From assembly GCF_002835995.1 (NCBI RefSeq), contig NZ_PJBZ01000040.1, positions 1 to 64,000 of the forward strand: 64,000 bases of DNA, in the 5' to 3' direction. Position 1 is the first letter of the stretch. Each line of letters opens with the position of its first letter. The DNA is from Psychromonas sp. Urea-02u-13. Its GTDB lineage: Bacteria > Pseudomonadota > Gammaproteobacteria > Enterobacterales > Psychromonadaceae. A model generated the notes under the pieces. It worked only from the letters and a program-made list of their open reading frames with translations, had not been told where the DNA came from and ran no database searches. Made by a program: the position numbers and the translations under genes. Below, one piece after another: positions 17,401 to 64,000 of this stretch.

Positions 17401-17453
17401 TTAATTGCTCAGTTAGTAGAGCTGTTGATACACTTTTAATTTAAAGCGTATTA
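17401..17453 (+). pseudogene. Decayed tRNA-Lys fragment
   Basis: TTGCTCAGTTAGTAGAGCTG resembles the D arm of the intact genes and is followed by CACTTTTAATTTAAAGCG, resembling the anticodon arm with its UUU loop. The acceptor and T arms are missing. A nearly identical fragment lies at 17822-17874. Confidence 0.6.
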
Positions 17454-17483
17454 AAGAAAAAAACTAAAACCATATTTATATAT

Positions 17484-17559
17484 GGGCCGTTAGCTCAGTT
17501 GGTAGAGCAGTGGACTTTTAATCCATTTGTCGAAGGTTCAAATCCTTCACGGCCCACCA
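17484..17559 (+). tRNA. tRNA-Lys (UUU), copy 1
   Basis: A 76-base cloverleaf with encoded CCA. The anticodon loop CTTTTAA gives UUU; GGGCCGT pairs with ACGGCCC; the T loop is TTCAAAT. Identical to the other four copies. Confidence 0.97.
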
Positions 17560-17647
17560 CTTATTTTAAGCCTTCAGCTTCTAGCTGTCAGCTGTAAGTA
17601 AGAGCCAAAGCTGTCAGCTGATAGCCGAAAGCTAAATATCTATATAT
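17560..17647 (+). repeat. 88-base tRNA spacer, copy 1
   Basis: Identical to 18125-18212, so tRNA-spacer-tRNA units were duplicated as blocks. It contains AGCTGTCAGCT and related near-palindromes. Confidence 0.8.
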
Positions 17648-17723
17648 GGGCCGTTAGCTCAGTTGGTAGAGCAGTGGACTTTTAATCCATTTGTCGAAGG
17701 TTCAAATCCTTCACGGCCCACCA
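17648..17723 (+). tRNA. tRNA-Lys (UUU), copy 2
   Basis: Identical 76-base sequence to copy 1, including encoded CCA. Confidence 0.97.
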
Positions 17724-17778
17724 CTTCTTTAAGCCGTCAGTTTTTAGCTGTCAGCTATAAGTAAAGTCAAAAGATAGA

Positions 17779-17805
17779 TATTAACTCAGTTGGTAGAGTT
17801 TAAAA
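17779..17805 (+). pseudogene. tRNA D-arm remnant
   Basis: TTAACTCAGTTGGTAGAGTT resembles the D arm of the intact tRNA-Lys genes; nothing else of the tRNA remains. Confidence 0.4.
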
Positions 17806-17821
17806 CCAAAACCATATTTAT

Positions 17822-17874
17822 ATGGAACTTAGCCCAGTTAGTAGAGCTATTGATACACTTTTAATTTAAAGCGT
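17822..17874 (+). pseudogene. Decayed tRNA-Lys fragment, second copy
   Basis: Nearly the same as 17401-17453: a D-arm-like AGCCCAGTTAGTAGAGCT and an anticodon-arm-like CACTTTTAATTTAAAGCG. Confidence 0.55.
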
Positions 17875-17908
17875 ATTAAAGAATAAAACTAAAACCATAT
17901 TTATATAT

Positions 17909-17984
17909 GGGCCGTTAGCTCAGTTGGTAGAGCAGTGGACTTTTAATCCATTTGTCGAAGGTTCAAATCCTTCACGGCCCACCA
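17909..17984 (+). tRNA. tRNA-Lys (UUU), copy 3
   Basis: Identical 76-base sequence to copy 1, including encoded CCA. Confidence 0.97.
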
Positions 17985-18000
17985 CTTTTCTTAAAGTGAA

Positions 18001-18030
18001 TATAAAGCTCAGTTGGTAGAGTTAAAAACC
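18001..18030 (+). pseudogene. tRNA D-arm remnant
   Basis: AAAGCTCAGTTGGTAGAGTT resembles the D arm of the neighbouring tRNA-Lys genes and is followed directly by the leader of copy 4. Confidence 0.4.
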
Positions 18031-18048
18031 AAGACCATATTTATATAT

Positions 18049-18124
18049 GGGCCGTTAGCTCAGTTGGTAGAGCAGTGGACTTTTAATCCATTTGTCGAAG
18101 GTTCAAATCCTTCACGGCCCACCA
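18049..18124 (+). tRNA. tRNA-Lys (UUU), copy 4
   Basis: Identical 76-base sequence to copy 1, including encoded CCA. Confidence 0.97.
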
Positions 18125-18212
18125 CTTATTTTAAGCCTTCAGCTTCTAGCTGTCAGCTGTAAGTAAGAGCCAAAGCTGTCAGCTGATAGCCGAAAGCTAA
18201 ATATCTATATAT
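18125..18212 (+). repeat. 88-base tRNA spacer, copy 2
   Basis: Identical to 17560-17647. Confidence 0.8.
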
Positions 18213-18288
18213 GGGCCGTTAGCTCAGTTGGTAGAGCAGTGGACTTTTAATCCATTTGTCGAAGGTTCAAATCCTTCACGGCCCACCA
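18213..18288 (+). tRNA. tRNA-Lys (UUU), copy 5
   Basis: Identical 76-base sequence to copy 1, including encoded CCA. Last gene of the array, which in E. coli also sits between cpoB and nadA. Confidence 0.97.
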
Positions 18289-18455
18289 CTTCTAGATTTA
18301 TCCTGAAATACTCCCCTGTAATAAGTTTCTATTTAAACACCAATAATTTTTAATGATTTTTAATAATTTCGACATAATTTATTAGCTCACTTGATCTGAA
18401 AATTTACATAATCGGTTTTGTTATAACGAATACTTCAGTGCTGTTTTCTGCCTTA

Positions 18456-32648: not shown

Positions 32649-32737
32649 GTTAGCTTATTATATTTATAAGGCATGTGATTCGCCTTCTGGAAATAGGCAA
32701 AGGTTTAATTATGTTCAGCGTTACTTTGCGGTTGTTG

Positions 32738-32945
32738 TTTCGCCTTGTGGGCGAGTCACTTTTTCTCAACAGCAAGAAAAAGTAACCAAAAAGTGCCGTT
32801 CCAAACATTTTTTAATCTGCTAGAAAGTATTACTTTTTAACGCACCGTAGTTGAATGCACATCCCTGTGCATGCAACTACTAAAGAAATCATCCATGATT
32901 TCTTTTACTAAAGTAATGCTTTTTAGCAGAAAAATGTAATGGAAA
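32738..32945. repeat. Structured hairpin repeat, copy R1 (between nrdD and nrdG)
   Basis: Hairpins in order: ACTTTTTCT/AGAAAAAGT (32758-32783); an outer stem 32816-32836 with 32910-32930 (21 pairs, two of them G-T); inside it 32847-32880 with loop ATCCCT, and 32882-32905 with loop CC. The outer stem continues through CATTTTT/AAAAATG. The same layout with different stem sequences recurs near 50.1, 53.5, 60.0 and 60.5 kb. No coding content. Confidence 0.75.
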
Positions 32946-33024
32946 CTTGATGTATACGCATTGAACCATTTTTATAGCTATGCAAAGCCAGCTTATAACT
33001 TGAATACTTAATAAAGAGGTAAGC

Positions 33025-40252: not shown

Positions 40253-40344
40253 GCACATTGCTTTAGTTATCTTTACTCTATTCCAATCTACCCCTGTTTT
40301 TCCTTTTCTTTAGTATTCTATTGAGTGCCAAAAAAAGCATGCGG

Positions 40345-40607
40345 TATATACCCATGTTACCTCAATATGCTTTGTCAGGCACAAGCTCGATAACGAGAGG
40401 TGATTTTTATTCACTTTTTGATTGTTGTAACGCGAACTGCCATGGTTGAATAACAAGTGAGATTGCGCTCCGTAGGGCAAAGAAACTTATACCAATCTAC
40501 GTCGTTATAAAATTTCGACTTAGAATGACTAGGCTTCAATTTTATGCCTAGTATCTCGGCACAATTTTCCTTGCTGACTTTGCACCTTGAAGTAGCATGG
40601 GTATATA
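40345..40607. repeat. MITE-like repeat, family A, complete copy
   Basis: 263 bases with ends TATATACCCATGTTACCTCA and the complement of TATATACCCATGCTACTTCA. The interior matches 1-272 in reverse. It fills most of the cheV-clpS gap, ending 36 bases before clpS. A 153-codon frame on the minus strand here runs from clpS antisense through the repeat and is not credible. Confidence 0.8.
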
Positions 40608-49851: not shown

Positions 49852-50465
49852 TTTCTGGTGTTTGGTTATTTCTACTTCTATATCTATTGACTAAAAACTT
49901 TCGGGTTCCCCGATCATAATTTTAACTTACTGATTTTGTTTATATCAAGATGTGGGTGTCCTCCCTTATTACTCCCTTATTAGAATTAAAAATAAAGAAT
50001 ACAACCATCAAAACGACAAGACTTGATTTCATTTACGCATTGAATTCTGTAACGCTGACGCTTATTCTGGCAAGGTTTGATCTTACATTACCGTCGTTTC
50101 GCCAGAGGCGAGTTACTCTTTTCTGGCGAGCAGAAAAGAGCTCGCCCGATTATTCCCTTCATTTGATTTCAAGATTGTTTTAACCGCACCAGTGCTTACA
50201 GAACATCCATGTTCTGAAGCGCACTTACCCCTGACCTCCTGTCAGGCCTTGCTAAAACAAACTTTAAACCAAAGGGAATACAACGGGAGTATTGAAGTGT
50301 GCATTGTGTAATGACAGACGCTTTTAATTTCAGTTTTTGAAAAAGAGCTTGGAATTAAGAACAAAAGCTATAACCATCAAAACCATTTTAGTGGCGAAGT
50401 GCTAGTTAAAAAGGTTGGGTGTCCCATCTTTTTTCTTTTTTGGATATCCCGATTGGCTTTTTAAA
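49852..50465. repeat. Structured hairpin repeat, copy R2, and surrounding gap
   Basis: No gene is seen in this 614-base gap. GGGTGTCC-type boundary motifs occur at 49954-49961 and 50417-50424. Between them lie CTCTTTTCTG/CAGAAAAGAG, a short outer stem (50171-50182 with 50253-50264), and inside it two hairpins: 50192-50224 with core CAGAACATCCATGTTCTG, and 50230-50246 (CCTGAC, CTCCT, GTCAGG). The order matches copy R1, but all stem sequences differ. The 77-codon frame from 49950 is repeat sequence. Confidence 0.65.
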
Positions 50466-51776
50466 TCAGGTTTTTTGTAGGTGATGATGAAGCTTTTGCA
50501 ACGCTCGGAGAATACAAATAGTTACAAGGGATACTATAATAATATATTCAATTGTTTCTTTAGAAATATCATATTTCCAACATAGAAATACAGCGCCTAA
50601 TAGGCACGGAAACCATGCAATTATTCTAAATAATTGTAACCAGCTTTGTGTTATATATATATTACGGTTTGTCGTATCTTTCATATCCTTGATACGTTTT
50701 TCTAACGCTTCGGGAAAATTTAATGCCGTACCTTGGATTGCTTCAAAAACTATATATTGTGATTGCTTAACTATGCTGAATCGATTCTGTTGATTTTGTA
50801 TTGAGCCGACAATAAATACTGAGGAAATAATTAACCCAAATAGTATCAAACAATCTATTAATACTGAATTGGAGGCTGGAGCCATCGCAATAATTGCAGC
50901 CAAGGAAACAGGTATAGAGAGTATCTTTCCTGTAATATCACTCATGATATTTGCGAGTTGTTCTGAAAAAGTTATTTCTGCTTCGGCTACTTCTTTTTTA
51001 GCTTTATGAAAGGCAAATCCACTTGAATAAGTTTTTAGGTTGTTTAAATATAGATCTGCAAAATCATCCCAATTCAATACTAAATAGTAAAATGCATCTT
51101 TAGGGTTATGTGATAGTGGTAAAAATTCTTTCAGGGTTGTAGAAAAAATAGTGATTTTAGCTGAATGATGGGTATCAATTGTTGAAGCTTCATCTGCGAT
51201 TAGATCATCTAGAATAGAAACCTTACTCAGCTTACCCATCAATAAATCAGCTGAAGGAATCATTGCTATAACCAGTGGGGAGTCAGTCTTTTCTGCACTT
51301 AAAAAGATGAGATGATGTTCTTCAGTTAAGTCTTTTACATTATGGTAATGTGCTAGCTTGAGTAGGCTTGATATTAAGACGCAGAGTTGCTTAAGCTTTA
51401 ATAAGTCCCCATGAACATCATTGCCCTTTTGGTAATAAATATCTTCGTCAAAAAGATAAAATTCAACAGGTAATTCACCTTTTTTGATATCTGAGGATTC
51501 TGATATAAGTTGTTCTATATTTTGGAAGTGACGAATCTCGCTACCAAGGTCAAATACAACAGCTAACTGTGATTCTGACACCGTTAAGTTTTCAACTTCA
51601 ATCTCATTACCATCAATAAGTACTTCATCAATTTGGTAATTGTCGTTAGCCTGAACTATTTTTTTTATTAATGTGATTATATCTTCTGATGCAGGAAGAA
51701 TAGCCGTAAAACCTTCTTTTAAAAAAGGCGGTTTACCGGATTTTCTATATATGTCTACAACATCAGATAAAGGCAA
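50466..51776 (-). CDS. Unrecognised four-helix membrane protein paired with an NdpA-like gene
   Basis: A 436-residue protein I do not recognise. Residues ~1-285 are soluble, acidic and globular-looking, with no signal peptide. Hydrophobic segments follow at ~288-305, ~308-330, ~385-405 and ~410-430, with a ~50-residue charged loop between the two pairs. The start is TTG, two bases after the upstream stop, so translation is almost certainly coupled to the NdpA-like gene; the weak start may lower its yield. The layout suggests a cytosolic sensor or effector domain anchored in the inner membrane by its C-terminal half. Confidence 0.6.
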   Translation of the reverse strand: MPLSDVVDIYRKSGKPPFLKEGFTAILPASEDIITLIKKIVQANDNYQIDEVLIDGNEIEVENLTVSESQLAVVFDLGSEIRHFQNIEQLISESSDIKKGELPVEFYLFDEDIYYQKGNDVHGDLLKLKQLCVLISSLLKLAHYHNVKDLTEEHHLIFLSAEKTDSPLVIAMIPSADLLMGKLSKVSILDDLIADEASTIDTHHSAKITIFSTTLKEFLPLSHNPKDAFYYLVLNWDDFADLYLNNLKTYSSGFAFHKAKKEVAEAEITFSEQLANIMSDITGKILSIPVSLAAIIAMAPASNSVLIDCLILFGLIISSVFIVGSIQNQQNRFSIVKQSQYIVFEAIQGTALNFPEALEKRIKDMKDTTNRNIYITQSWLQLFRIIAWFPCLLGAVFLCWKYDISKETIEYIIIVSLVTICILRALQKLHHHLQKT

Positions 51777-53155: not shown

Positions 53156-53800
53156 GGACATCCCATCTTTGCTTCAATGGTTGTTCGTCAAGATTAATTG
53201 TCAGAGGTTTCACCTCTTGGCGAGTCGATGATTAGACAAGAGTAAAAGAGGACATACCTTTCTTGATTCGATGGTATTAATCAAAAATAAGTTTCTGAAA
53301 TAAGAACAAAACGGGATATCCCATCTTTGCTTCAATGATTATTCGTCAAGCTTAATTGGCAGAGGTTTCGCCTCTCGGCGGGTCGATGATTAGAAACCAA
53401 AACGTAGTTTCGCAGTTCTAGAGAATCATGCTTCTCAACAGCAAGAAAAAGTAACCAAAAAGTGCCGTTCCGAAACGTTTTGATACTTAGGTAACCAACA
53501 ACTTCTTAACGCACCGCCTTTGAATGCACATCCCTGTGCATGCAAAGGCTAATGAAATCTTCCATGATTTCTTTTGCTAAAGTTGTTACTCACCTAAGAA
53601 AAACGTAAACGGAATCTTTGCAGCCACATTGATTCCCTATACCCGTACTCAGTCGGGATAATCCAAATTGACAGCAAACACAAGGCGGACAATAAAGTTC
53701 ATCTCGTAACGTTGTGGAAATATCCATTACCTCTTAGTGGTTCAGAGTGGAAGCGGGCTATTTAAACGACTAAGGCTTAGCCGAAAAGGTTCGGGTGTCC
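53156..53800. repeat. Structured hairpin repeat, copy R3 (with a partial tandem 5' part)
   Basis: It begins GGACATCCCATCTTTGCTTC (53156) and begins again as GATATCCCATCTTTGCTTC near 53330. Outer stem 53486-53504 with 53580-53598; inner hairpins 53516-53549 (loop ATCCCT) and 53554-53571 (loop TTCCAT). A conserved tail follows (ATTGATTCCCTATACC, GGCTATTTAAACGACTAAGG), ending TCGGGTGTCCTACCTTTTTT. No gene inside. Confidence 0.8.
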
Positions 53801-55942: not shown

Positions 55943-57217
55943 ATGAAAATAACGAATATCAGCATTAAAAACTTTAAGAGATTTGAAGATGAATTGTTTT
56001 TATTTAACCCTAAAGTAACAGTCCTTATAGGTGATAATGGAACAGGAAAGTCAACTGTTTTAGATGCATTATCCTTTATATTGGGAACTTTCTTTTTGGG
56101 AGTTGATGGAGTGAAATCTCGCCCTTTGAGCAATTCAGAAAAAAGAAGGGTTATTGCTTCACCTGAAAGCGTTGAAGTTCAATTACCATTTTGCATCGGT
56201 GTAGAGCATTCTTTAGATAATATAAATTATCAATGGAAAAGAAGTACTAACAAAGTTCGTAGCGGTGTAACAAGCCAAAAAGAAGCTAGAGACTTAATTA
56301 ATAAAGCTAAAGATCTAACTGAAAGAGTTCGAAATGGTGAGGAGGTTAACCTCCCATTGATTGCATACTATGGAACTGAAAGATTATCTGAGCAATTTCA
56401 AAAAAGCGCATACGCTAAAAAAAGCTCTAGGCTTGATGGATATTATAGTGCTCTAGATCCAAGATCATTTGAACAAAAGTTTTTATCTTGGTTTAAAACA
56501 TTTGAAGATAGTGCTCTGAAATTCAATAAAGACAAAACTCTCTATAATGCTTTTATTTCAGCTATTAAAAATATGATTCCAGAGTGGAAAAATGTAGTAT
56601 TCAGTTGGGAAGCTGATGATATGTTGTGTCAAGTTGAGTCGGGAGATTGGGTTGCATATAAGACTTTAAGTAGCGGATACAAAAATGTTGTTCGACTTAC
56701 TGCTGATATCGCTTACAGAGCTATAAAATTAAATCCTCACCTTGCTGATATGGCTGTTTTAAGTACAAGTGGTGTAGTTCTGATTGATGAGCTAGACATG
56801 CATTTGCATCCAAAATGGCAAAAAACAATTATTGAGGATTTAAAACGAACGTTTCCCAAAATTCAATTTATTGTAACGACTCATTCGCCATTTATTATTC
56901 AATCTCTAAAAACTGATGAAGTTCTTAATTTAGATGGTGGAGAAGTTATTGATCCATTTATGAAAAGTATTGATGATATTGCGGAAGAGGTTCAGCAAAT
57001 AGAAATACCTCAAATGAGCAATAAGAAAAAAGCTATGCTTACCTGCGCAAATGAGTATTTTGATAAGCTTGATGAATTAGAAAAGTCCAATGTAACGGAA
57101 GATCAAATACTTGAAATAAAGAATAGATTGGATGAAATTTCTGCTCTTTATGAAGATAACATGGCATATGTGGCTTTTTTAGAAAGGAAACGCTTAATAA
57201 CGGAAAGCAAGCTGTGA
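55943..57217 (+). CDS. ptuA: Septu anti-phage system ATPase PtuA
   Basis: A 424-residue SMC/ABC-type ATPase. ISIKNFKRFEDE opens the domain; Walker A GDNGTGKST (~30-38); Walker B VVLIDELDMHLHP (~275-288); switch His in TTHSPFIIQS (~312); ALSSGYKN-like signature in the TLSSGYKNVVRLTADI segment. The partner gene downstream encodes an HNH nuclease. In Septu the PtuA oligomer holds PtuB in check and releases its nuclease activity on infection. It overlaps ptuB by four bases (GTGA). Confidence 0.88.
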   Translation: MKITNISIKNFKRFEDELFLFNPKVTVLIGDNGTGKSTVLDALSFILGTFFLGVDGVKSRPLSNSEKRRVIASPESVEVQLPFCIGVEHSLDNINYQWKRSTNKVRSGVTSQKEARDLINKAKDLTERVRNGEEVNLPLIAYYGTERLSEQFQKSAYAKKSSRLDGYYSALDPRSFEQKFLSWFKTFEDSALKFNKDKTLYNAFISAIKNMIPEWKNVVFSWEADDMLCQVESGDWVAYKTLSSGYKNVVRLTADIAYRAIKLNPHLADMAVLSTSGVVLIDELDMHLHPKWQKTIIEDLKRTFPKIQFIVTTHSPFIIQSLKTDEVLNLDGGEVIDPFMKSIDDIAEEVQQIEIPQMSNKKKAMLTCANEYFDKLDELEKSNVTEDQILEIKNRLDEISALYEDNMAYVAFLERKRLITESKL

Positions 57218-57894
57218 GGCCTATAAAAAGAGGGCCTGTTCCTCAAGGTTCTGATGGGGAAAATAAAGTTTACACTCAATACGGACAAGCTAAAGATGAC
57301 TTAAAGAATTCCATCGGCCATTTTTGTTCTTATTGTGAAATGAATATTTGCAACCAATCTGATATTGAACATGTACAACCAAAATCGAGCAATGAAGTTT
57401 TAATTAATAGTTGGAGTAATTTCTTACTCGCTTGTAAAAGTTGTAATATCATAAAGTCAGATAATAATGACGACCGAGATGGTTATGTATTTCCTGACGA
57501 ACATAATACTTCATTTTTATTTGAATATAATGAGTCTGGTATTTCTGTGAAAGATGATCTACCTGAAGAAGTAAAAACATTAGCGCTGGCTACATTTAAT
57601 TTGGTGAGTTTAAATAGAAAGAAAGATACAGCTGGAAGGACAGATGATAGGGCTTTTGCAAGGTTAAAGTCATGGCAAAAAGCTCAAGTTTCCTTAAATG
57701 ATTTTTTGGAATTACCTAATGAGCCAGCAATGGTAAGGCAGACTGCTAGATCTTGTGATGGTTTCTTTTCAATGTGGTTACAAGTTTTTTCGCAATACCC
57801 TGAAGTGAAAAGACTAATTTTAGAGGAAGTCAAAGGGAGTGCTATGGAGTGCTATGATGCTCAGGTAAAGCCTATTGAGAGATTGGAACGTTAA
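57214..57894 (+). CDS. ptuB: Septu anti-phage system HNH nuclease PtuB
   Basis: A 226-residue HNH endonuclease. FCSYCEMN (~38), IEHVQPKS (~52) and NFLLACKSCNIIKSD (~70-85) give the zinc Cys pairs and the catalytic His of the HNH motif; MRPIKRGPVP is a common start for this family. The start is GTG inside the ptuA stop, so expression depends on coupling. The gene ends just before a GGGTGTCC-type boundary motif at 57902. Confidence 0.88.
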   Translation: MRPIKRGPVPQGSDGENKVYTQYGQAKDDLKNSIGHFCSYCEMNICNQSDIEHVQPKSSNEVLINSWSNFLLACKSCNIIKSDNNDDRDGYVFPDEHNTSFLFEYNESGISVKDDLPEEVKTLALATFNLVSLNRKKDTAGRTDDRAFARLKSWQKAQVSLNDFLELPNEPAMVRQTARSCDGFFSMWLQVFSQYPEVKRLILEEVKGSAMECYDAQVKPIERLER

Positions 57895-57943: not shown

Positions 57944-59766
57944 TTAAATAAACCCAATACTATTGCTTGTACTCTTTCTCTTATTTTCTGATTTTAATAC
58001 CCCAATACATTCGTGTCCAAGAAGCTTGTTAGCTGTTATTTTTTGACGCCTAGCTAAGATAGAGAAGTCGCCGGGAGTAAGGATTTTTAGGGGATTAAGC
58101 TGTGACGTTATTGCTTTCGTTAATGTCTTTGATTTAGTCGTTTGTTTGTAAAGTAGGTGCACTTGCACTTGCTCTTGCTTCAAAAAGTCAAATGACAGCT
58201 TATAATCAAACCGCCTCATCACTGCTTTATCTAATCGCTCTGCAAAGTTAGTAGCGGCAAAAAAAGGCTGATTAAAGCATTCCATATGTGTGAGCAGTTC
58301 ATTAACTTGCTGTATCTCATGGCTTTGACTCAAGCCTGGTCTATCTAATAACAAGCTGTCGACTTCATCAAAGAAGAGAATGCAGTTGTCGTGATCTGCT
58401 TGTTGAAATATCCTCGCTATATTCTTCTCACTTCCTCCAACATACTTATCTAACCTGAATTCTGGATAAGCAACGCTCCCCAATACTGCTATTTTGGCGC
58501 CTATCTTCGTTAAATTAACTCAGAATAGCCAGCTATTCACTTCTCAATTTGCCTCGATAATCACAAAAATTTCAGCACTGGCTGACAGTGCATCATTACA
58601 TTATAAATATTCAGTTAAAGCGCTCATTAACCGGAACTCAGGTTATCTAACACATCTGAGCATCGTATCGTGCGTAACTCCTTCCCTGCTTGCTCTGCTA
58701 AGTGATGAACTAAAGCCGTTTTACCAGTCCCTGATGGGCCCAGTAATAACACTCGTACATCACAATGCTTAGTGATAGCACCTTCAATCTCATCGATAGA
58801 CTGATTACCTTCTTTCAAGTTAATAAATTCAGTGGAGAAGGGGATCTGTGATTTGTACACTTGGTGGGTAGAATCATAACCACATGCTGTTAATACATTC
58901 GTGATCGATGTTTCGATTGACTGTTCGGCCACTTTTCCTTTTTGCTTGATGCTTTTGCTGATAAAGGATGCATTGGTGATATGAGAGGGGGCTATATTGT
59001 CATTCCTCAAGATCTTCTCTTTAAATGATTTTGAGATGCTTAACCCTTTAAAGCTTGTATCGAGTAGCTTGCTCATGATGCGTTTATCAGGTATTTCCAC
59101 ATTAACTATATGTGAAAATCGCCTTAAACAGCTATGAGGGATTTCATCTATATGATTAGTTACCACAAATAGTGGGAAGCACATTTGACTCAAGTAAGTG
59201 ATGTAGTAGATCTTTGCCTCCTCCATAGTTTGATAGGTTTTGAGCAAAAACATCCTCACATTCATCTAATAACAGTATGGTTTTGTCATTATGATTAACG
59301 ATATTTTGCACTAATTTGAGAAATTGTAACCGAATAGTTGAGCTTGTTACTTTGTGTTGACCTCTACCTTGAAATGATTCAATTGTTTGAATACTAACAA
59401 GCTCTGCATTAAGTGTATTCGCCACCACTTTAGAGAATTCTGTTTTACCTGTGCCAGCCCGTAGATTAAGACATTAATCCCCTTGAAGGAGTTGTTAACA
59501 GCGACATCGAGAAAGCTAAGTAACGTCTCCTTCTCAATATATTCAAAGTCATTAAGGGTAAGTGGGGATTTTGCCAGTGGTTGTAAGATGTGGCCTAATA
59601 ATTCGATATAGCATTTAGCTCTTTTACCAAATAGCTTTGCAACGATGATGCTTGGTAACCCATCAATATCCGTAAATAGTATGCTATCTGCATCGTCAGT
59701 TAAGCCTGTTTGATTAAGCAGATATATGCATTGATGCAATTCAGCCTCTTTAACAAAACGGGACAT
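57944..59766 (-). pseudogene. Broken double-AAA ATPase
   Basis: One ancestral gene now in four pieces. Piece 1 (to ~59450) ends at its first Walker A, where LIYG is followed by a frameshift; the other frame reads GTGKTEFSKVV. Piece 2 holds Walker B TILLLDECEDVF, then a +1 shift near 59170 separates it from VTNHIDEIPHSCLRRFSH. Piece 3 holds the second Walker A, LLLGPSGTGKTA, and is cut by a 193-bp insertion. Piece 4 holds ILFFDEVDSLL and RRFDYK (arginine finger region). The first codons lie in repeat sequence, so the true N-terminus is lost. Domain layout resembles COG0464 AAA proteins; original role unknown. Confidence 0.85.
58452..58644. mobile_element. 193-bp MITE-like insertion, family D
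   Basis: Inverted ends AACCTGAATTCTGG (left) and, on the complement of the right end, AACCTGAGTTCCGG (12/14). Flanked by ATCT on both sides (the shared bases extend to eight, TATCTAAC). Removing the element and one flank copy restores the AAA reading frame as DVLDKYVGGSEKN. The core AATAGCCAGCTATT (58524-58537) is the complement of the family B core at 18528-18541. No coding capacity. Confidence 0.9.
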
Positions 59767-60256
59767 CCCCTCTTTGCTTCAATGATTCATCCTGTCGATG
59801 GTTCGGCTTAATTCGTAGAGGTTTCGCCTCTCGGCGAGTCGATGATTAGAAACCGAAATGCAGTTTCGCAGTTCTAGGGAATCATGCTTCTCAACAGCAA
59901 GAAAAAGTAACCAAAAAGTGCCGTTCCGAAACGTTTTTTATTCTTAGGTAAGCAACAACTTCTTAACGCACCGCCTTTGAATGCACATCCCTGTGCATGC
60001 AAAGGCTAATGAAATCTTCCATGATTTCTTTTGCTAAAGTTGTTACTCACCTAAGAAAAACGTAAACGGAATCTTTGCAGCCACATTGATTCCCTATACC
60101 TGTATTCAGCTGGGGGTAATCCAAATTGACAGTAAACAAAAGGAGACGCAACAACTTTTACCTTATTACGTCGTGGAAATATCGAACACCTTTTGTTCAG
60201 AATGAAAGCAGGCTATTTAAACGACTAAGGCTTAGTCAAAAAGGATCGGGTGTCTT
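59761..60256. repeat. Structured hairpin repeat, copy R4
   Basis: Starts GGACATCCCCTCTTTGCTTC and ends near CGGGTGTCTTCGATTG. Outer stem 59943-59961 with 60037-60055; inner hairpins 59973-60006 and 60011-60028. Nearly identical to R3 in the core, diverged in the tail. Its first bases form the apparent start of the AAA pseudogene. The small frame across its tail is not a gene. Confidence 0.8.
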
Positions 60257-60288: not shown

Positions 60289-60690
60289 GGACATCCCCTC
60301 TTTGCTTCATGGTCGTTCGTCAAGCTCATCCAGTCGGTGATTAAGCTTAATTTACAGAGGTTTCGCCTTTTGGCTAGTCGATGATTAGAAACCAAAACGC
60401 AGTTTCGCAGTTCTAGAGAATCATGCTTCTCAACAGCAAGAAAAAGTAACCCAAAAGAGCCGTTCCGAAACGTTTTCTATTCTTAGGTAACCAACAACTT
60501 CTTAACGCACCGCCTTTGAATACACATACCAGTGCATGCAAAAACTAATGAAAATCAAGGGGCACTCAGTGCTTAGCCCGTTCATAACCCTGAACTGTCG
60601 TTCAATTCACTCCATTATTTTTTTGCTAAAGTTGTTACTCACCTAAGAAAAACGTAAACGGAATCTTTGCAGCCACATTGATTCCCTATA
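60289..60690. repeat. Structured hairpin repeat, copy R5 (variant)
   Basis: Starts GGACATCCCCTCTTTGCTTC 33 bases after R4 ends, so the two are in tandem. The outer stem (CTTAGGTAACCAACAACTT with AAGTTGTTACTCACCTAAG) is kept, but the second inner hairpin is replaced by a module with GCACTCAGTGC and GTTCATAACCCTGAAC that is shared with R6. The tail after CCCTATACC is missing. Confidence 0.75.
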
Positions 60691-62677: not shown

Positions 62678-62975
62678 AAGCACTCAGTGCTTAGCTTGTT
62701 CATAACCCTGAACGGTAGTTCAATTCACTCTATTGTTTTTTGCTAAAGTTGCTGTACAGCTAAGAGAAACGTAAACGGAATCTTTGTAGCCACATTGATT
62801 CCCTATACCCATACTCAGTTGGGATAATCCAAATTTACAGAAAACACAAGGCAGACAATAACGTTCATCTCGTAACGTTGTGAAAATATACATTAGCTCT
62901 AGTAGTTCAAAATGGAAGCCGGCTATTTAAACGACTAAGGCTTAGCCCAAAGGTTCGGGGGCCCTACCTTTTTTG
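62678..62975. repeat. Structured hairpin repeat, copy R6 (3' part)
   Basis: It begins with the GCACTCAGTGC module seen in R5, continues with AAACGTAAACGGAATCTTTG and ATTGATTCCCTATACCC, and ends with GGCTATTTAAACGACTAAGG and CCCTACCTTTTTT. The 5' half, including the left outer stem, is missing. Confidence 0.75.
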
Positions 62976-62988
62976 CCTTTTTTTATTT

Positions 62989-63024
62989 ATTGTGGCTAAT
63001 GCTGACTCAGGTATTAGCCACAAT
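62989..63024. terminator. Stem-loop at the end of the C4-dicarboxylate carrier gene
   Basis: ATTGTGGCTAAT (62989-63000) pairs with ATTAGCCACAAT (63013-63024), a strong 12-bp stem. On the minus strand an A-rich tract follows, so it is not a classical intrinsic terminator in that direction; a 3' stabilising role is possible. Confidence 0.5.
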
Positions 63025-63036
63025 AATGAATAATAA

Positions 63037-64000
63037 TTAAAGGATCATCCCGCCAAAAAAGAAACCGAGTATCACTGAGCTTGCAATGGTCGAGACTCCA
63101 GGGATTAAGAAGGGGTGATTAAAGACGAATTTACCAATACGAGTGGAGCCAGTATCATCCATTTCAACGGCAGCAAGTAACGTCGGATAAGTGGGTAATA
63201 CAAACAGTGCACTCACGGCTGCAAAAGAAGCAATGGCGGTTAGTGGTGCGACACCGATAGCTAATGCGGCTGGCATTAGTGCGACGGTGGTGGCGCCTTG
63301 AGAATAAAGTAACATTGAAGCCAAAAATAGAATGATGGCAAGAGTCCATGGGTAATCAATCAATACTGCACCAGCAACTTCTTTAATGCCTACAACATGA
63401 TTACTCACAAATGTACTACCTAACCAAGCCACACCAAGTACACAGATACATGCTGTCATACCTGAAATAAAGGTAGGTGCATTGGCTATTTTTGATGCGT
63501 CTATTTTTGTAAACACCACAATGGCAGCGGCTGCCGTTAACATGATCGCCATAATGGCTTCATTGCGCCCTAATGTCGGATCTTGGATCAAACCTACTGA
63601 GGATGAAATCGCAGCTGCGTAGATGATTACACAAATTATGGCCAGCATGAAAATACAGGTTGCAGGTTTTGCACTTGCAGGGAGTTCACGTTTAGTCACT
63701 CCTCTCATTTTAATTAATCCTTTTTTTAAACGTTCGTTATACACAGGATCATCTTTTAACTCACAGCCCATTTTATTCGCTACAAATGCACCAATCATGC
63801 ACGCGATAAACGTACTTGGAATACAAATAGACAGAAGCGTTAAATAACTAACACCTACAGGCTCTAATATGCCGGAGAAAAAAACAACAGCCGCAGAAAT
63901 GGGTGATGCGGTGATCGCTACTTGAGATGCAATAACGGAAATCGACAGAGGGCGAGATGGACGTATACCTTGCTCTTTGGCAACTTCAGCAATAACCGGT
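63037..64000 (-). CDS. Anaerobic C4-dicarboxylate carrier, DcuA/DcuB family (5' part outside window)
   Basis: The frame is open to the window edge; ~321 C-terminal residues are visible. PVIAEVAKEQGIRPSRPLS, VAITASPISAAVVFFSG and IPSTFIACMIGAF match the Dcu family (PF03605), as do ALIG-type helices and the closing KFVFNHPFLIPG. These carriers exchange external fumarate, malate or aspartate for internal succinate during anaerobic growth. An ATG at 63798 is internal and not the start. DcuA or DcuB cannot be separated here; no dcuS/dcuR or fumarase gene is visible. Confidence 0.9.
   Translation of the reverse strand, partial: PVIAEVAKEQGIRPSRPLSISVIASQVAITASPISAAVVFFSGILEPVGVSYLTLLSICIPSTFIACMIGAFVANKMGCELKDDPVYNERLKKGLIKMRGVTKRELPASAKPATCIFMLAIICVIIYAAAISSSVGLIQDPTLGRNEAIMAIMLTAAAAIVVFTKIDASKIANAPTFISGMTACICVLGVAWLGSTFVSNHVVGIKEVAGAVLIDYPWTLAIILFLASMLLYSQGATTVALMPAALAIGVAPLTAIASFAAVSALFVLPTYPTLLAAVEMDDTGSTRIGKFVFNHPFLIPGVSTIASSVILGFFFGGMIL

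Follow-up and report, generated by a model that had tools for sequence, protein, structure and literature searches.

Copies of the TwoAYGGAY RNA are often located at the edges of AT-rich, species-variable islands and point out of them, in Psychromonas, in Aeromonas and in a third genus, designated g6. The structure and the family are already known; the placement of copies at island borders looks new. The motif was listed by Weinberg et al. in 2010 (PMC2864571), where the accessible part of the article grades it as probably an RNA and probably not cis-regulatory. Gardner's 2015 paper, in its accessible part, proposes CsrA binding from motif matches, and the available portion of the Rfam 15 description reports two added covarying pairs. 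The accessible parts of the TwoAYGGAY literature found make no mention of outward pairs or defence islands. Literature searches on a cysS hotspot and on island borders, a scope outside which most subscription papers and preprints fall, brought up no link to TwoAYGGAY.

The window is the whole stretch of DNA analysed, 64,000 nt from Psychromonas sp. Urea-02u-13, a genus to which named NrdG relatives also point. A search with the Rfam covariance model identifies its repeats as RF01731 (TwoAYGGAY RNA), on the minus strand throughout. Four of the five copies pass the gathering score of 43, with 48.6-76.7 bits. Scores are also given for R1, a covariance model of TwoAYGGAY made in this analysis. The copies and their companion hairpins are as follows.

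32791-32952, minus strand: TwoAYGGAY copy between nrdD-like and nrdG-like genes (Rfam 76.7 bits over 32790-32954; R1 149.7 bits)
50136-50296, minus strand: TwoAYGGAY copy close to the RNase P gene, bounding an AT-rich block on its left (Rfam 48.6 bits; R1 117.1 bits)
53460-53621, minus strand: TwoAYGGAY copy (Rfam 67.8 bits over 53462-53620; R1 137.8 bits)
59916-60078, minus strand: TwoAYGGAY copy (Rfam 70.2 bits over 59918-60077; R1 156.3 bits)
60455-60670, minus strand: longer, partly decayed TwoAYGGAY variant (R1 103.2 bits; no Rfam match above the gathering score)
62680-62800, minus strand: 5' part of what is probably a truncated TwoAYGGAY variant (from repeat families D2 and D17 and from sequence reading)
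32725-32790, minus strand: companion hairpins just 3' of the 32.8-kb RNA, the leading hairpin of the original prediction (fold -21.4 kcal/mol)
50075-50140, minus strand: companion hairpins 3' of the 50.2-kb copy (fold -18.1 kcal/mol)

The five-copy repeat family of the original prediction is real, with copies confirmed at 32.8, 50.2, 53.5, 59.9 and 60.5 kb. The predicted layout stands for the outer stem and the two inner hairpins. It does not stand for the leading hairpin, in which other sequence takes the place of the outer arm at 53.5, 59.9 and 60.5 kb (folds of -9.7, -9.7 and -12.7 kcal/mol), so that this companion element is not common to all five copies. The element placed at 32738-32945 is a true copy, with its end at about 32954 rather than 32945. 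The TCC loops ascribed to the repeats arose because the complementary strand had been taken; they are the GGA loops of the RNA, whose functional strand is the opposite one, with A-N-GGA loops on the minus strand. Because the copies belong to a described RNA family, the statement that they match no named family fails. Companion hairpins resembling those of the window adjoin Aeromonas copies, as read by eye.

The variant at 60455-60670 carries about 55 extra nt within inner hairpin 1, and its second loop is GGT instead of GGA. In many of the longer copies, which measure about 216 nt, inner hairpin 1 holds an insert of about 55 nt with two hairpins of its own; L147:7596-7811 and the window copy at 60455-60670 are among them. 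A similar insert is present in L134 (11431 onward), but in another, companion hairpin. This insert looks like a tiny mobile piece that prefers hairpin loops. The putative truncated copy at 62680-62800 gave no covariance-model match.

On the GGA strand, selection maintains the TwoAYGGAY fold. This result comes from an alignment of 40 copies from the window's own genome and its relatives; the remaining 12 of 52 extracted or tried copies were near-duplicates, partial or broken copies, or contig-end cases. RNAalifold gives 49 pairs, and for 40 of them at least one copy has both partners changed and still pairs. Standard pairs make up 91.0% of paired cells, versus 67.6% in shuffles, and two-sided changes occupy 494 cells versus 166, the fold being tested on the same alignment from which it was derived. 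Kinship alone can beat shuffles without structure. A control in which partners are slid by 1-3 columns preserves kinship, and there pairing falls to 38-44%. The covariation score is 0.624, versus 0.204 for the shuffle and at most 0.129 for the slide. In helices 1 and 2, the outer stem around both hairpins, 22 of 25 pairs show two-sided changes. The compensatory change originally reported at several stems is thus strongly borne out, as is the proposal that the family is selected as a folded single strand, whether RNA or single-stranded DNA.

On the GGA strand, G-U pairs outnumber A-C pairs by 97 to 21 in the 40 copies and by 292 to 72 in 123 model matches, which identifies this strand as the one that folds; the test relies on structures computed with G-U allowed and does not distinguish an RNA from this strand folded as single-stranded DNA. 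All 40 aligned copies, a set to which the 60.5-kb copy does not belong, have GGA in both loops, and each loop is closed by C-G. Because the second letter of the loop can be any base or missing, the consensus is A-N-GGA and not a strict AYGGAY. Both GGA hairpins of the aligned copies match the CsrA/RsmA site as a motif, and the window's own genome has one CsrA gene.

A covariance-model search of the host genome and its relatives, the check originally proposed, shows the family to be widespread. The window's own genome has 25 RF01731 matches over the cut-off, 31 at E ≤ 1 and 45 with R1. Relatives also carry copies: the matches listed range from 0 (four genomes) to 35 among 24 Psychromonas genomes, counts that are low because this survey used stricter filters. 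Across the order, a match was found in 86 of 394 sampled genomes and in 21 of 118 genera, with only six candidates per genome scored. RF01731 matched none of 14 control genomes. A Psychromonas copy had no plasmid match. An Aeromonas border had no phage match, and its one "plasmid" match is a 4.94-Mb A. caviae circle. The circular 4.94-Mb A. caviae record NZ_AP026896.1 (L285) bears a plasmid label in PLSDB and 18 annotated features, and is probably a chromosome. A 295-aa ORF recurs close to several copies in one Psychromonas genome, G019 (L164, L220, L221, L224), twice followed by a 353-aa ORF; the one checked against Pfam belongs to the Phage_integrase family (L164).

Copies are not oriented at random. 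All R1 matches were taken from three Psychromonas genomes, namely the window's own (45), G006 (20) and G019 (46). Among 64 neighbouring pairs no more than 10 kb apart, 21 point outward (minus then plus), 2 inward and 41 in the same direction. With randomised strands, an outward excess like 21 versus 2 was never reached in 20,000 trials. Of 83 neighbour genes lying 3' of a copy, 57 are convergent; those lying 5' are unbiased (35 versus 37). For other genera, 26 neighbouring pairs within 10 kb could be formed among the 150 matches listed, from an incomplete and partly selected list of 15 genomes: 6 outward, 2 inward (both more than 7 kb apart) and 18 in the same direction. One genome, G128, entered this search after its pair was known, so the fair count is 5 versus 2, which proves nothing alone.

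Base composition shows the same polarity. The 1.2 kb on the 5' side of each copy was compared with the 1.2 kb on the 3' side; clustered copies are not independent in this test, and 5 of 45 own-genome copies (short flanks) and 5 of 16 cysS R1 matches fall outside it. In Psychromonas, 70 of 106 copies have the higher AT content on their 5' side (sign p 0.0006; 12/20, 32/46 and 26/40 by genome). So do 17/17 Aeromonas copies, 11/11 behind cysS and 6/6 at other sites picked by the copy alone, and 8/10 g6 copies, 4 of the 10 having been chosen as outward pairs. In the f7 genomes the rule fits 1 of 10 copies, and tandem copies occur there without an island. Three and four tandem copies, respectively, are found at L295 and L296 in genome G122, at spacings of about 440-610 nt and, unlike in Psychromonas and Aeromonas, with no AT-rich island.

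These patterns bear on the possibility that the copies are dispersed small-RNA genes that sequester CsrA like CsrB or RsmZ and gather where insertions are tolerated, with the link to islands a by-product. Both loops match the CsrA site, genomes hold many copies, and Gardner and colleagues suggest such a role from motif matches in the accessible part of their paper. However, neither the outward orientation (21 versus 2) nor the composition step is predicted by a CsrA sponge, and the copy number varies from 0 to 35 inside one genus. Consensus scanning, which is weak evidence, picked up no sigma-70-like promoter of its own at the 32.8-kb copy, where the single terminator-like site is on the opposite strand; promoter-like and terminator-like counts in such scans are about those of shuffles. 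We regard this explanation as improbable.

Different cargo occupies the same site in different genomes. The gene names nrdD, nrdG, metH, cysS, trpA, rep/uvrD, DarTG and LysE-type were read by eye from translations. Between nrdD and nrdG, an outward pair encloses a Ppl-like gene in one Psychromonas genome (G019), a DUF2971 protein in another (G020) and two genes in a third (G007), where the one gene scanned had no Pfam or PADLOC match and an Abi_2 gene lies outside the pair. In the window's own genome and in G009, this site holds just one copy. G016 has a copy on its nrdG contig, from which nrdD is absent; in G010, other genes fill about 4 kb of the site and there is no copy. Of the 24 Psychromonas genomes, 21 of which were resolved here, 14 have an nrdD-nrdG gap of at most about 305 nt that holds no copy. 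In genus g6, the site behind a metH-like gene holds a PDC-S20 KAP gene in G214 and an AriA-like ATPase in G121.

The clearest borders are found behind cysS in a high-GC genus (g36), taken as Aeromonas because a border matches an A. caviae record (96.6% over half of the query). The set comprises 21 loci (L260 and 20 more), with a CysS peptide match at all but L278 (20/21); in two loci the contig breaks off shortly after the left copy, which leaves 19. With an AT-rich island defined as 300-nt windows below 47% GC over at least 600 nt, 17 of the 19 have an island, and 16 of these 17 have a copy at an edge: 10 islands at the left, 15 at the right, 9 at both and 1 at neither. All 10 left-edge copies are on the minus strand and all 15 right-edge copies on the plus strand, so every one points outward. 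Three border sequences served as blastn queries for these copies, some of which came up as partial matches of 37-103 nt; R1 itself finds copies in 10 of the 17 island loci. Neither of the two loci that have no island has a copy. The left and right borders are different sequence types, linked by compensatory changes. Elsewhere in Aeromonas (L286, L287, L289, L291), AT-rich blocks that follow rep/uvrD-like and trp-like genes have a copy at an edge or close to it.

Cargo mostly differs between species; behind cysS, L272 and L278 have the same cargo pair. When all 38 ORFs of at least 150 aa in the cysS islands were searched, 120 PADLOC families matched at E ≤ 1e-20, including GajA (3 members), GajB (2), OLD (4), AriA (4) and LmuB in the first member. 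Over the sites as a whole, cargo matches include Lamassu, Gabija, Ppl, NsnA and KAP-type genes, and many cargo genes have no match. Conserved border types with changing cargo, as at cysS, are also what recombination in the flanks would give, and the islands could in principle enter by homologous recombination of core flanks, leaving the repeats as neutral debris at their edges. Against neutral debris, the GGA loops are near-invariant and compensatory changes connect the two border types, both of which indicate selection on the fold, and the orientation is not random. This account is very unlikely.

The main rival of a border role acts at the level of DNA. Here, each copy would form a structured terminus of a mobile but non-autonomous cassette. 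A transposase or recombinase encoded elsewhere would cut or recombine it as folded single-stranded DNA, so that cargo between two outward ends would travel together. An excess of G-T over A-C is to be expected, too, if this strand folds as single-stranded DNA, which counts against reading the wobble bias as support for an RNA border. Sites that have no island lack both cargo and borders (2/2 at cysS; 14 of 24 Psychromonas genomes at nrdD-nrdG), as expected of a cassette; they establish no target-site duplication. In A. caviae KAM479, the border pair lies about 400 nt apart with no island between, and at one site the form without an island retains one terminal hairpin, as read by eye. Several copies have GGACAYCC sites, which are shared with RAYT units, on their cargo side, and the copy number of 0 to 35 within Psychromonas also fits mobility. 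Against this, outward partners are no more alike (median identity 0.561, range 0.48-0.85, n = 20) than non-adjacent copies (0.568-0.718). Same-direction neighbours have a median identity of 0.742 (n = 31, some above 0.9), a higher likeness that would be as expected of tandem duplicates. A copy lies within 1.5 kb of only 4 of the 30 RAYT loci retrieved, and no recombinase shared by the units turned up in an unsystematic look. Border GC was measured in one case, where it follows the host and not the cargo; at one Aeromonas locus, borders of 67% and 64% GC surround a Ppl-like gene of 34% GC. On balance, we consider a mobile cassette end rather unlikely.

Many of the bordered genes resemble defence genes. 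Within outward pairs, PADLOC and Pfam searches match PDC-S49 KAP, NsnA/GmrSD with SIR2, PDC-M11A with SLATT, NsnA with HEPN, PDC-S20 KAP, Ppl-like, PtuA/PDC-M01, Shedu and DUF2971/PDC-S31, where the PDC families of PADLOC are candidates and not proven systems. Other outward intervals hold an alkaline-phosphatase-type gene, Bro-N, a betaine-binding protein or genes without a match; bordered genes at L145, L146 and L165, for example, have no PADLOC or Pfam match. Of 13 outward intervals spanning 0.7-10 kb in the three fully searched Psychromonas genomes, 5 contain a recognised defence gene (G006, 2/2; G019, 3/8; the window's own genome, 0/3), three intervals of about 7-9 kb having only been sampled. 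Such a gene is present in 9 of 16 outward intervals of further loci, a biased proportion because these were chosen from hit lists; two of these intervals lay outside the scan. Defence cargo is thus common and not the rule. At the protein level, 14 of 40 proteins from cluster interiors, a non-random sample in which 5 come from intervals other than outward pairs, have a PADLOC match at E ≤ 1e-10. Among 20 control genes, the outer neighbours, 4 match at E ≤ 1e-3 and 3 at E ≤ 1e-10; by judgement, the four are a TatD-type protein matching QatD, an NrdG matching pVip and two proteins of 459 and 255 aa that look like cargo. Given the composition of the cargo sample, the excess (14/40 versus 3/20) is modest.

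The window itself contains an AT-rich block at about 50.5-58 kb (33-36% GC versus 38.7% for the window), which the 50.2-kb copy separates from the rsmI/RNase P region (rsmI named by search). Its features are listed below.

50466-51776, minus strand: partner gene of the YejK-like gene, 436 aa (weak plasmid homologues)
51779-52885, minus strand: nucleoid-associated YejK-like protein (PDB 9be2, E 1.1e-13)
53156-53164, plus strand: GGACATCCC-type site on the opposite side of the 53.5-kb copy (more at 59761 and 60289)
53793-53800, minus strand: octamer GGACACCC (GGGTGTCC on the plus strand), as at the ends of RAYT transposase units
55943-57217, plus strand: PtuA-like ATPase of a Septu-type pair (PDB 8ee4 PtuA, E 4.7e-43)
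57214-57894, plus strand: PtuB-like HNH protein, overlapping the ptuA-like gene (weak PDB PtuB/TIGR02646 matches, best E 0.00098)

A Septu-like pair, probably a defence system as judged by homology and with a weakly matched ptuB-like half, thus sits between the 53.5- and 59.9-kb copies. The weak homologues of the 436-aa gene adjoin YejK-like genes on two plasmids; the 436-aa protein and two further genes of the block had no PDB match. One of these two further genes, at 58627-59265, has weak matches to AAA proteins. Because all five copies in the window point in the same direction, the right border of this island is unclear. RAYT units at L194, L198 and L197 have GGACACCC/GGATGTCC-type ends, and the same octamers are found on the cargo side of several copies; in the window, RAYT-type octamers lie at 53156, 53314, 53793, 59761 and 60289.

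We propose that TwoAYGGAY serves as a directional boundary of islands, a reading to which we give even chances. Given the outward direction of border copies, TwoAYGGAY would be in sense in a transcript that leaves the island, and one that enters would have only its complement. The RNA would be made by read-through transcription. As the two GGA hairpins match the CsrA/RsmA site, CsrA may bind the outbound read-through RNA and lead to its termination or degradation; taken alone, this CsrA step, predicted from the motif, is doubtful. Host genes, often convergent, would thus be shielded from foreign AT-rich islands, and islands could be swapped with little harm. More tentatively, and with somewhat less than even chances, TwoAYGGAY may be the boundary module of an unrecognised class of defence cassettes in aquatic gammaproteobacteria, in which complete single anti-phage systems change from one species to the next inside outward-facing, CsrA-type borders fixed behind nrdD, metH and cysS.

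Several known systems resemble parts of this arrangement. RF01731 is the same element, matching the same covariance model over its whole length with two GGA hairpins in a long outer stem. CsrB and RsmX/Y/Z share A-N-GGA hairpin loops in pairs; they are one or a few stand-alone small-RNA genes, whereas TwoAYGGAY has many dispersed copies, often at island edges, and its CsrA binding is predicted. REPs and REPINs with their RAYTs are likewise dispersed, intergenic, palindromic and at times in inverted pairs, and RAYT genes occur in the genus. REPs are about 20-40 nt long; TwoAYGGAY, in contrast, is a branched fold of about 160 nt that lies mostly away from RAYT loci. Integron cassettes carry exchangeable cargo, defence genes included, and attC sites are structured repeats beside it. 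Unlike attC, TwoAYGGAY points outward on both sides and not in one direction, with no attC-type core pair by eye. In core-gene defence hotspots such as the E. coli islands (PMC10121019), a fixed address holds variable defence systems, as here; the difference is that the edges of TwoAYGGAY islands carry a known structured RNA.

Several candidate mechanisms drawn from these systems were rejected or fit poorly. A RAYT mover was set aside since the one PF01797 Y1 transposase of the window's own genome has unrelated repeats of its own. A second RAYT family, with GGACAYCC ends and present in 19 of 24 genomes of the genus, has a copy near only 4 of the 30 of its loci retrieved and is retained as a lead. 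Against the REP/REPIN reading, 26 of these 30 RAYT loci have no copy within 1.5 kb. An attC reading based on the conserved TTAGCA/TGCGTTA core yielded no matching R-box pair by eye, and an integron attC array does not fit copies in both orientations within clusters, with 21 outward pairs. Against a transposon with terminal inverted repeats, the two ends of a unit are not near-identical (outward pairs, n = 20, median identity 0.561).

Since 2010, TwoAYGGAY has stood as a "probable RNA" without a known function, and a role at island borders, if true, gives it a testable job. The RF01731 model would then be a tag for finding defence systems that current catalogues overlook. It would also suggest that RNA-level insulation, besides DNA integration, helps decide where immune genes settle.

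Three further features of the window were observed. Tandem 163-nt repeats at 17407-18298 hold five tRNA genes. The stretches 1-293 and 40327-40602, about 40 kb apart, share inverted repeats (166, 42 and 73 nt) with 82-92% complementarity. A long hairpin at 62975-63044 with a sub-threshold mir-633 match is possibly a terminator.
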